NCBI GenBank assembly: GCA_026418215.1
Contig: JAOABT010000422.1
Coordinates: 1 to 15,390 of the forward strand
Reading direction: 5' to 3'
Origin: Clostridia bacterium
GTDB lineage: Bacteria; Bacillota; Clostridia; DSM-8532
DNA: 15,390 bases
Translations under genes and position numbers: made by a program
Notes under the pieces: model-generated
Seen by the model: the letters and a program-made list of their open reading frames with translations, nothing else
Told to the model about the DNA's origin: nothing
The model's database searches: none
In this document: positions 1-5,718 of the stretch, piece after piece
Numbering within the stretch: position 1 is the first letter of the stretch
Layout: each line of letters opens with the position of its first letter

Positions 1-1969
1 GAAGCCCCAGCCCGCCTATGGACTCCATCATTTGCTCCTTAGTATAGCCCGCGGTCTCGAGGGGAGAGAGGATATCCTTCTTGATATCGCCGATGTAGGC
101 CTTGAGCGCCTTGATTTGGCCTTTGAAGGCATAGGTGCCCAGGCTTGCGGGAATCAGGATGGACTGGCCTTCGCGAACCTTCATCGACCCGGTATCCCAT
201 GTAAGCTCAGCGCTTCCCTCCAGGAAGGTATAGGCCACGAAGGATCGGCCATCGGCAAATAGCTGACCGTTTTCTGAAACCTCAATCAGTTCAGCACAGA
301 AATGGGAGTCTGCCACTAAAACCTTTATTCTGACTCCGTCCTTTTCGTAGACCAAGCCAGGGAATTTTCCTTTTAAGGTTGCGCGGTCAAAGCGGATGGA
401 ATCGAGCGCCTTTGTGACATGAAGCGGCCTTGCGGTGCCATCCGGGTTCTTTCGGTCGAAATCGTAGAGCCTGTAGGTGGCGTTGGAATTCTGTTGAACC
501 TCAGCCATAAGGATGCCCTTTCCTGCTGAGTGGACTGTTCCGGCAGGTATAAACACAACATCTCCTGCAGCTACTTTCACACTCTTCAAAAGAGAGCTGA
601 TGCGGCCCGCCTGAATTTGTTTTTCAAATTCCTCGCGGGTCATTTCGCGGGTGAGACCATAGAGAATCGTAGCATCAGGAATAGCCTCCAGGATGTACCA
701 CATCTCAGTTTTACCAAGGTCATTCTCATGAATTTTGGCGTAAGCATCTTCCGGGTGCACTTGGACTGACAGCCAGTCATTGGCATCGATAAATTTCAAA
801 AGGAGAGGAAATTTCTTTTTGTACTGGGCCATGCTCAGGGTGCCCAGGAATCTCTCGCCGAATTCCAGCCCCATATCCTCCAGCGTGCTGCCGGCAAAGG
901 CACCTTCGGCGACGACATTCATGCCGTCGTGATGTGTAGAAATCTCCCAGCTTTCGGCAACGGTCATTTCGGGGATGGCTTTTCCAACCTTTTTCAGATT
1001 GCTTCCGCCCCATATGTAATTCTTATATAACGGCTTGAAGGTAAGGGGATATAAGCTGTTAGTGACGCTTCCCGGAATCATCTGGTTCCTGTAAAGGAAG
1101 GGTGACGTCCCCACCTTTCGCCTAAAGGTACTGCTAAGGTGAAATTCGCTTGAAAAGCCTGTTTGGTCGGCGATCTGACTCAAGGTCAGATTTTTGTTCT
1201 CGAGCAGCTGCTTGACAACTCTCAGCTTTTCCTCAAGCACAAAGTCATGAGTAGACAGGCCGGTTTTGCTTTTAATGACGCGTGAAAGCTGTTTTTCGCT
1301 TAAAAACAGGTATTGGCTGAGTTCCTCGCAAGTGATATTCCGCTTAATATTATCGGCAATGTAGCGCTTGATTGAATCCATGCGGTAATTGCTCAAATCA
1401 CGGTAGGGAACGGTATAGGTTGTGTTGGCCTTAATATCAAGCGCCCGGGCCATGGTAATAATGATTCGATAAACCAGGGCCTTTATCTGCCCAAGATAAC
1501 CGGGCTTCATGGCATAGGCCTCGTGGAACAGGGCTTCAAAAAGCTCATCCACACGGGCTCGATCCTGTGCAACATGGGTAGGGCTGTTTTCCAAGAGCAT
1601 GTAAACGTATTCTTCTTCCCCAAAGGCTTCATCCGGTGCTGGCCTTTTTTCTAGACTAAGACTGCATTTGAGCGCATATTCCAGCATGGGGTCCTGCTTG
1701 GAAGCCTCCTGACTGTGCAGCAGCCCTGAACCTGTTACATACAGATCACCGGGGTTTAATGGGAAGCTGGAGCCATTCATAACGACATTACCGTGTCCGC
1801 TTTTTATATAGTGAAATTCCAGGTTGGAGTGAGCATGCTCATCAAAGGTCATACCCGGCTTAAAGGCCTCCACCCGGATGAAGTCCACCTTGATAAAAAG
1901 GTTGTCCACTCTGAACTGGATGTCCATATTCTGAAGCGTTTCGCAAGCCTTCCAAAGAAAATTATCCAT
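1..1969 (-). CDS. manA: AraC-type regulator fused in frame to type I mannose-6-phosphate isomerase (3' end outside window)
   Basis: One open frame of 656 codons with no stop, running off the left edge. Residues about 20-100 form an AraC-type cupin sensor (EHAHSNLEFHYI, then PGDLYV). Residues about 197-295 carry the double HTH; the second helix pair reads LTLSQIADQTGF (261-272), followed by the family's RRKVGTSPFLYR end. From about residue 305 an entire type I phosphomannose isomerase follows: YIWGG, NDWLSVQVHPED (397-408), LGKTEMWYIL (418-427) and GTVHSAGKG (477-485). Predicted zinc ligands are Q403, H405, E422 and H480. The enzyme interconverts mannose-6-phosphate and fructose-6-phosphate in the cytoplasm. 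The isomerase unit is about 315 residues, the usual stand-alone length, and at least 35 further residues continue past it. Start chosen at ATG 1969 because GGGGGAG lies just upstream; an in-frame ATG at 1990 lacks a good site. The likely role is a mannose-responsive regulator carrying its own enzyme, which is inference. Confidence 0.9.
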   Translation of the reverse strand, partial: MDNFLWKACETLQNMDIQFRVDNLFIKVDFIRVEAFKPGMTFDEHAHSNLEFHYIKSGHGNVVMNGSSFPLNPGDLYVTGSGLLHSQEASKQDPMLEYALKCSLSLEKRPAPDEAFGEEEYVYMLLENSPTHVAQDRARVDELFEALFHEAYAMKPGYLGQIKALVYRIIITMARALDIKANTTYTVPYRDLSNYRMDSIKRYIADNIKRNITCEELSQYLFLSEKQLSRVIKSKTGLSTHDFVLEEKLRVVKQLLENKNLTLSQIADQTGFSSEFHLSSTFRRKVGTSPFLYRNQMIPGSVTNSLYPLTFKPLYKNYIWGGSNLKKVGKAIPEMTVAESWEISTHHDGMNVVAEGAFAGSTLEDMGLEFGERFLGTLSMAQYKKKFPLLLKFIDANDWLSVQVHPEDAYAKIHENDLGKTEMWYILEAIPDATILYGLTREMTREEFEKQIQAGRISSLLKSVKVAAGDVVFIPAGTVHSAGKGILMAEVQQNSNATYRLYDFDRKNPDGTARPLHVTKALDSIRFDRATLKGKFPGLVYEKDGVRIKVLVADSHFCAELIEVSENGQLFADGRSFVAYTFLEGSAELTWDTGSMKVREGQSILIPASLGTYAFKGQIKALKAYIGDIKKDILSPLETAGYTKEQMMESIGGLGL

Positions 1970-2011: not shown

Positions 2012-2040
2012 ATTGTATAGAAAAAGGCCCTGTCTGACAA
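2012..2040 (-). promoter_or_regulatory. Promoter of the AraC-ManA fusion gene
   Basis: On the minus strand TTGTCA (2040-2035) is followed after exactly 17 bases by TACAAT (2017-2012). Both are close to sigma-A consensus and sit about 45 bases upstream of the chosen start. The -35 lies in the loop and descending arm of the preceding terminator hairpin, so terminator and promoter share bases. Confidence 0.7.
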
Positions 2041-2052
2041 TGACAGGACCTT
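2018..2052 (-). terminator. Rho-independent terminator between abrB and the fusion gene
   Basis: An 11-bp inverted repeat (2024-2034 with 2042-2052, one G-U pair, 7-base loop) is followed on the minus strand by a T-run. It would stop read-through from abrB. It is the second hairpin after abrB and overlaps the -35 element of the next gene. Confidence 0.7.
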
Positions 2053-2124: not shown

Positions 2125-2376
2125 TTACTTTCCTTCCTGACTTTTAAGCTGCGTGTAGCATTCGCTGCACACATTCTTTCCTTTATAAACCTTGATGTCT
2201 CTTGCGTTGTCGCAGAAGATGCAGGCAGGCTCGTATTTCTTAAGAACAATGGCTTTTTCGTCGGAATAGAATTCCAAACCGTCTCCAATTTCAATGTCTA
2301 GTACGCGCCTTAATTCGATTGGGATGACAATTCTACCCAGCTGATCAAGACTTCTGATCATACCCGTCGCTTTCAT
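2125..2376 (-). CDS. abrB: AbrB-family transition-state regulator
   Basis: An 83-residue protein whose first 45 residues are the swapped-hairpin AbrB DNA-binding domain (LGRIVIPIELRRVLDIEIGD). AbrB proteins bind DNA as dimers or tetramers and repress post-exponential genes in Bacillota. The C-terminal half carries two CxxC pairs, C52/C55 and C70/C73, which could bind a metal; this arrangement is familiar from clostridial AbrB homologues, whereas Bacillus subtilis AbrB lacks the full set. The start is ATG 2376, preceded by a GGGGGG Shine-Dalgarno at good spacing. It is transcribed alone, with its own consensus promoter and two downstream terminators. Its targets cannot be read from this window. 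Confidence 0.93.
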   Translation of the reverse strand: MKATGMIRSLDQLGRIVIPIELRRVLDIEIGDGLEFYSDEKAIVLKKYEPACIFCDNARDIKVYKGKNVCSECYTQLKSQEGK

Positions 2377-4920: not shown

Positions 4921-5718
4921 ATGAAGAAATTCAAAAAGATTCTTGCCATTATGCTTGCACTTTTGCTTTTAGCGGCAACAGCTACAGCATGCGGACAGAG
5001 CGGCAGCAAGGAAACTGATGAGGAGGATACACCGAAGGTATCCGACGCGTCCAAAACACCCGAGGCCACCATCGAAGCAACACCTGAAGCCACACCCGAA
5101 GCTACGCCTGAGGCGACTCCTGAGGCCACTCCCGATGCCTCTTCTGCATCTGGAAGCGAAGTTAGTGCCGATGCTCTTATGGGTGTTATAGATGGTAACA
5201 ACTATAACAACGACTATTTTGGCTTTACTATGAGCTTCCCCAAGGACTGGAAGACCTTGACCCAGGACGAGATGCTTGCCAACTACCAGCTCGGGGCCGA
5301 ATTCATGAAAAAGAACGGAACGAATGAGAAGGTTGTTGACCTTAGCATGCAAAAGATCATTCCGCTTTTCATGATGACCGATACCTCTGGATCAGCATCA
5401 AGCCTCAATATTCTTGCTACAGACTTAAGCCTTATGGGCGGTTTGGTTAAAACAGGGAAGGATTATCTGGTTCTTGCCGAGCAGGGCTTGAAGGCACAGA
5501 AGATTGACTTTACTATGGGCGAGATCGCAGAAGTTAAGATTGGCGGCGCTGATTTCGGTAAGGTTGACGGCGTTATGAAGGTTAATGGCATGGAGATTTC
5601 ACAGTCCATGTATGCAACTATCACAAAGGACCACGTTATCCTATTTACAATGGTTTACACCTCTGATGCAGCCAAGAAGTCCTTGGAAGACACCATGAAT
5701 ACCATAACCGTTAAGTAA
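4921..5718 (+). CDS. Secreted lipoprotein of unknown function with PEAT-repeat linker
   Basis: A 265-residue protein with a classic lipoprotein signal: MKKFKK, a leucine-rich core, and a lipobox ATAC ending at C24. After the lipidated cysteine comes an acidic, Thr/Pro/Ala/Glu-rich linker with repeated EATP units (about residues 46-73). A globular domain starts at about residue 95 (YNNDYFGFTMSFPKDWK). That opening resembles small extracellular domains of the PsbP/DUF1795-like kind common in clostridial lipoproteins, a resemblance of pattern only. The linker probably spans the cell wall. A strong GGAGG lies 9 bases before ATG 4921. A TATAGT at 4876-4881 could be a -10, but no good -35 is seen. 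A strong terminator follows. Confidence 0.85.
   Translation: MKKFKKILAIMLALLLLAATATACGQSGSKETDEEDTPKVSDASKTPEATIEATPEATPEATPEATPEATPDASSASGSEVSADALMGVIDGNNYNNDYFGFTMSFPKDWKTLTQDEMLANYQLGAEFMKKNGTNEKVVDLSMQKIIPLFMMTDTSGSASSLNILATDLSLMGGLVKTGKDYLVLAEQGLKAQKIDFTMGEIAEVKIGGADFGKVDGVMKVNGMEISQSMYATITKDHVILFTMVYTSDAAKKSLEDTMNTITVK
5056..5139 (+). repeat. Tandem PEAT/EATP-coding repeat in the lipoprotein linker
   Basis: About six units of 12-15 bases encode Thr-Pro-Glu-Ala repeats. Synonymous codons vary from unit to unit (GAA/GAG, GCC/GCT/GCG/GCA, ACA/ACG/ACT), so the repeat is old and kept at the protein level rather than freshly duplicated. Confidence 0.85.

Follow-up and report, generated by a model that had tools for sequence, protein, structure and literature searches.

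A probable fusion of an AraC-type regulator with a type I mannose-6-phosphate isomerase in a Clostridia genome

A single reading frame in a draft Clostridia genome encodes an AraC-type transcriptional regulator followed by a type I mannose-6-phosphate isomerase (PMI, the product of manA). We favour, with a probability of roughly 0.6, a real gene fusion, restricted to one lineage and probably of recent origin, by which production of the regulator and of the enzyme became locked together.

Results

The window (the whole stretch of DNA that was analysed, 15,390 nucleotides) makes up all of contig 23 in a draft genome (G000) that totals 2.84 Mb in 676 contigs. This metagenome-assembled genome (MAG) is 82.6% complete with 6.28% contamination, and the fusion is known from this one species and this one fragmented MAG. 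On the minus strand, a single stop-free frame of 663 codons runs from position 1990 to position 2 and is open at the contig edge. The ATG at 1969 (Met8) has a Shine–Dalgarno energy of −8.6 kcal/mol, compared with −2.7 for the first ATG at 1990, and Met8 is the likelier predicted start; from there the AraC–PMI ORF occupies positions 2–1969. The first-pass annotation had likewise placed the fused gene at 1–1969, with regulator and isomerase in one frame without stop or shift, and the uninterrupted minus-strand frame at 2–1990 bears this out. The stop codon lies beyond the contig end; PMI relatives align up to residues 660–662, and therefore little of the C terminus is missing. Within this 82.6%-complete MAG, the fused ORF is the only match to the PMI catalytic domain PF20511. 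Third-position GC is 0.57 and 0.59 for the two halves and 0.53–0.64 for the other genes of the window. We considered and rejected the AraC half as a foreign piece by composition, as base composition runs without a break along the window.

Both halves were recognized by domain models, with matches far beyond chance level. The regulator half matched AraC_binding (PF02311; positions 1652–1888, minus strand, ORF residues 35–113; 1.8e-11, 44.4 bits against a cut-off of 21.1), Cupin_2 (PF07883; residues 41–101; 1.4e-16, 60.3 bits, cut-off 27.2) and the AraC-type helix–turn–helix (HTH) model HTH_18 (1085–1321, minus strand, residues 224–302; 3.5e-15, 56.5 bits, cut-off 33.6), and the HTH_AraC model scored 42.9 bits against a cut-off of 26.6. 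These were followed on the same strand by the type I PMI catalytic domain (PMI_typeI_cat, PF20511; 728–1036, residues 319–421; 1.4e-13, 51.7 bits, cut-off 22) and the PMI C-terminal cupin (PF21621; 95–316, residues 559–632; 2.9e-10, 40.4 bits, cut-off 27). The manA model TIGR00218 matched the fused ORF at 4.6e-41 (141.2 bits, cut-off 116.2), and the structure of Bacillus subtilis ManA (PDB 1qwr) matched residues 314–629 at 3e-55. In numbering that starts at Met8, the HTH_18 match extends to residue 295 and PMI homology sets in with the motif LYPLTF at 306, close to the boundaries of about 295 and 305 given in the first-pass annotation.

Q410, H412, E429 and H487 (ORF numbering) were identical in all 25 rows of the PMI alignment, one of which is the window's own, and R507 was identical in 24; we take these five to be the metal-binding and catalytic positions. 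That alignment (A2) holds 24 of 30 PMI relatives, the other six being omitted solely for size. The first-pass annotation had both halves keeping their key residues; the PMI metal-site positions are retained and the HTH and cupin models pass their cut-offs. The sequence supports a predicted single polypeptide that combines an AraC regulator with a complete type I PMI, a pairing that makes sense in its genomic context. By membership, each half is an ordinary representative of its own family. AlphaFold2 modelled the PMI half with a pLDDT above 90 in every ten-residue block. The HTH end and linker had low confidence. The model was also poor for the regulator's cupin, probably because the alignment had just eight AraC rows.

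The junction (positions 1055–1084, minus strand, residues 303–312) lies within the stretch of low model confidence. Here a TGA of the +1 frame overlaps the ATG at the junction, as it would in an ATGA gene overlap, so that a small indel, be it genuine or erroneous, would separate the two genes. The MAG being of modest quality, the true locus might be an araC and a manA that overlap or abut, their frames joined by a one-base indel error. We consider this distinctly unlikely: AraC homology continues in frame through R301 and PMI homology resumes in the same frame at about residues 312–313, which confines any joining error to some 33 bases.

The same ATG (Met304; 1079–1081, minus strand) is a possible remnant of the manA start, from which PMI could also, or even mainly, be translated to give two products from the fused frame. 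It lies 10 residues before the YPL motif, where the first-ATG starts of four same-genus copies lie 5, 5, 8 and 11 residues before it, and an AGGA stands 5 nt upstream. Its Shine–Dalgarno energy of −4.3 kcal/mol is, however, ordinary: among 93 other internal ATGs in the coding sequences of the window, 28 equal or better it. The AGG doubles as the codon of R301, which is invariant in a five-row AraC alignment. An internal manA start was rejected on this background of internal ATGs, and translation from Met304 seems to us quite improbable. As the leader of manA is apparently gone and this Shine–Dalgarno is ordinary, PMI should come mainly as the fusion protein.

The gene order around the fusion is conserved. 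Immediately upstream lies an abrB-like gene (2125–2376, minus strand, 83 aa) that is 88–95% identical in five relatives and adjoins manA in relatives. Two relatives (G012 and G009) carry asnA, abrB and manA consecutively and co-oriented, and two more (G013 and G019) have abrB and manA co-oriented, with no asnA in the part of the locus that was fetched. In these four genomes, abrB and manA are separated by about 175–321 nt, a gap that holds no araC. G004 shares with the window the order abrB, rSAM, asnA, lipoprotein and GH13-like genes through to valS, and its manA adjoins abrB in inverted orientation. In the window, manA, abrB and asnA are ordered and oriented as in G012 and G009, and an rSAM gene separates abrB from asnA, as it does in G004. 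The araC part sits exactly between abrB and manA. The manA part is 61–65% identical to its four closest same-genus copies.

An assembly chimera was also considered. It is unlikely, since a chimeric contig should misfit on one flank and here both flanks fit, abrB and manA adjoining each other in four relatives. The first-pass annotation had raised the case of homologues that are always split into two ORFs at the junction. The outcome lies in between: an AraC fusion was seen in no further PMI gene among those examined, but in near relatives araC is absent from the locus and has not been split off at the junction. This absence from the abrB–manA locus of near relatives makes those loci look pre-fusion. 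Two further features were seen in these regions: the manA frame of G019 (L146, ~15103–16460) continues without a stop for some 100 codons ahead of its PMI match, with no match to the AraC half, and a lipoprotein-like ORF of the window (4921–5718) carries a run of TPEA repeats after a signal-like region.

Upstream of the fused gene, a promoter-like TTGTCA-17-TACAAT with 10 of 12 consensus matches lies at 2012–2040 (minus strand). It overlaps an intrinsic-terminator-like hairpin 3′ of abrB (2024–2052, minus strand), with an 11-pair stem and a T-rich tail. Sites of both kinds are only about twice as frequent here as after shuffling: six promoter-like sites (by consensus match only) were found between 900 and 2600 where 2.6 were expected, and four terminator-like sites were found where 2.2 were expected. 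The promoter-like site and the hairpin suggest that the fused gene may be transcribed separately from abrB, on a transcript of its own. A crude 16-mer comparison of the leader of the fused gene with the promoters of GH38 and araC genes revealed no shared operator; the best matches had 9–13 identities, and the maxima in 15 shuffles each were 11–14. No insertion scars in the form of direct repeats of at least 12 nt were found in 950–2200.

To place the regulator half, we compared it with other genomes; the samples of the various searches overlap, and the AraC profile, class and whole-protein phylum searches scored the best four to six first-look candidates per genome. Among 31 other genomes of the family (E ≤ 1e-25) there was one homologue, in G016, with 29% identity and an in-frame TGA. 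Four others in a class sample of 391 genomes reached 1e-40 with 32–35% identity, five best candidates being scored per genome and further homologues being possible. These five closest homologues found (29–35% identity, nearly full length) are all near a gene for a GH38 alpha-mannosidase, which stands directly beside the regulator in four genomes (G111, G138, G377 and G016); in G174 the distance is about 5 kb. A profile search added five more distant homologues; three adjoin GH38, two of them from one genus, and for the other two, about 1.5 kb of flanking sequence showed no GH38. As a control, we fetched seven other AraC-HTH loci of the source genome, out of 12 such places, and none had GH38 in flanks of up to 1.5 kb. 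Four GH38 proteins, that of the source genome included, were checked against Pfam. G016 and G050 (in-frame stop), among the ten AraC homologues found, were omitted from alignments A1 and A2. Judged by homology, the AraC half is of the type found with alpha-mannosidases. Both halves therefore point to mannose use, and their union would join two parts of one pathway.

The source genome has one GH38 gene, on the 8.3-kb contig 357 of G000, in a run with genes for two URO-D-family proteins and a B12-binding protein (L166:344-6599). No homologue of the AraC half was found on contig 357, which ends close to the GH38 run, such that a regulator beyond it would escape. In G138 (L148), GH38 comes directly after the araC gene and is followed by genes for a related URO-D protein and a B12-binding protein. 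The same-genus genomes G007 and G008 have no such AraC anywhere at E ≤ 1e-25, despite GH38 proteins 48–49% identical to that of the source genome; this kind of GH38 gene thus does not need the regulator.

The in-frame TGA of the G016 homologue indicates that the gene is being lost there, and the AraC–PMI fusion was found in one species. Both observations would fit an AraC half that is degenerating, a passenger leader of manA with no regulatory role. We regard this as very improbable, because the AraC half is free of stops over 305 codons, keeps 32–35% identity with four homologues over its full length, and scores above the cut-off with its cupin model and both HTH models.

To determine how rare the arrangement is, we examined other PMI genes. 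PF20511 occurs in 95 of 398 phylum genomes and 195 of 391 class genomes, the source genome being counted in both. None of 67 PMI loci besides the window (of which at least three are the same place seen twice) has an AraC regulator in the PMI frame. Fourteen other frames exceed 550 aa among the matches listed and none matches the AraC half; by reading, their partners are ROK in eight, a nucleotidyltransferase in three and GH1 in three, with five of the 14 Pfam-confirmed. With the whole protein as query, 20 other genomes out of 33 in the order and 42 others out of 264 in the phylum gave matches, and every alignment among those listed starts at residue 285 or later, that is, it runs through the PMI half. 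In a plasmid collection, 939 records matched, none with a single place covering 80% of the protein. Literature on AraC with PMI, judged by titles and the beginnings of abstracts, describes no such fusion, nor do papers on related themes, judged by title among those listed. As to the domain architecture that the first-pass annotation asked about, no second AraC–PMI fusion was seen among the PMI genes examined, and PMI was seen fused to other partners. The AraC–PMI pairing was absent from the collections and papers searched, which does not prove it unique.

The other PMI fusions are of several kinds. PMI–ROK fusions, which join the isomerase to a probable sugar kinase, were seen in L153, L155, L156, L157, L159, L161, L163, L164 and L064 (Pfam-checked in L161, L163, L164 and L064); ROK precedes PMI in L164, and PMI precedes ROK in the remaining eight. 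A GH1 glycosidase-like domain accompanies PMI in L106 (Pfam-checked), L154 and L162, in frames of 770–778 aa from three genomes of one family. L111, L158 (Pfam-checked) and L160 combine PMI with a nucleotidyltransferase, possibly a mannose-1-phosphate guanylyltransferase, and a 498-aa frame at L035:1480-2976 combines PMI with a NUDIX domain (Pfam-confirmed).

Discussion

We propose that a regulator of the GH38-associated AraC type arrived in the gap separating abrB from manA, where it apparently replaced the leader of manA and became continuous with that gene. Relatives show both the likely pre-fusion locus (abrB–manA) and the setting in which the regulator is usually found (near GH38), which shows how such a fusion can arise. 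A single polypeptide, consisting of cupin sensor, HTH, short linker and PMI, would then be made from its own promoter. Its ligand, its targets, the activity of both halves and the mode of control are predicted from sequence: the cupin would most likely sense a mannose-type sugar, the HTH would most likely activate its own gene, the alpha-mannosidase gene on contig 357 or both, and the PMI half would convert mannose-6-phosphate to fructose-6-phosphate. The fusion would lock together production of a mannoside regulator and of ManA, the protein having the build of a trigger enzyme (an enzyme that also controls transcription). This predicts a single regulator common to the alpha-mannosidase gene and the one manA that was found.

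The PMI half could also, as the first-pass annotation suggested, act as a second sensor of flux, with binding or turnover of mannose-6-phosphate or fructose-6-phosphate altering DNA binding. Such sensing would suit a chain shared by an enzyme and a DNA-binding domain, the build given for trigger enzymes in PMC8249747, and two halves that point to one pathway. The junction, however, was modelled with low confidence and does not suggest tight coupling, and none of the AraC homologues found carries a PMI, so that their cupin should suffice as a sensor. Since PMI was modelled confidently and the HTH end and linker were not, we take the two parts to be independent and rate flux sensing lower, as rather unlikely. 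Its fullest form is a two-sensor AraC regulator, in which the cupin reads mannosides, a still-catalytic PMI reads mannose-6-phosphate or fructose-6-phosphate, and the alpha-mannosidase gene is controlled in trans; this also strikes us as unlikely, and if true, one protein would integrate mannose supply and mannose flux. Locked co-production is the simpler reading compared with a PMI half that senses mannose-6-phosphate or fructose-6-phosphate.

PMC8249747 names BirA, NadR, PepA, PutA and PyrH as trigger enzymes of Escherichia coli, and the term is also used in PMC4941109. In the enzymes named, a metabolic enzyme and a DNA-binding part share one chain, as they do in the sequence of the fusion; unlike in the enzymes named there, the DNA-binding part here is of the AraC type with a cupin sensor of its own. 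Control by the substrate of the enzyme, as in trigger enzymes, is putative for AraC–PMI. If real, the fusion would extend the set of enzymes with a built-in DNA-binding domain by a pairing that the searches made here did not find, that of an AraC regulator and a sugar-phosphate isomerase.

The PMI–ROK, nucleotidyltransferase–PMI, GH1–PMI and PMI–NUDIX proteins also hold PMI and a partner in one frame, but their partners look like enzymes, whereas here the partner is a DNA-binding regulator. Regulators of the RpiR family consist of an HTH and a SIS sugar-isomerase fold, and their folds differ from those of the AraC–PMI fusion in both parts. They likewise join an HTH to a phosphosugar-binding fold and would work similarly if flux sensing holds; in comparison with them, the PMI of the fusion retains its metal-site residues.

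Each half has stand-alone counterparts. The AraC regulators near GH38 (G111, G138, G377, G016 and G174) likewise comprise a cupin and an AraC HTH, one of them Pfam-checked, but are separate genes of about 300 codons near a mannosidase, whereas here the regulator is at manA and fused to it. B. subtilis ManA (1qwr) and the TIGR00218 family have catalytic and cupin parts and metal-site residues in common with the PMI of the fusion; the N-terminal regulator of about 300 residues is present here and in no other PMI examined. Unfused neighbours were also observed: a divergent araC gene adjoins manA in G059, and Arthrobacter citreus plasmid CP053689.1 (L201) carries an AraC-type regulator, manA and ROK as separate adjacent genes.
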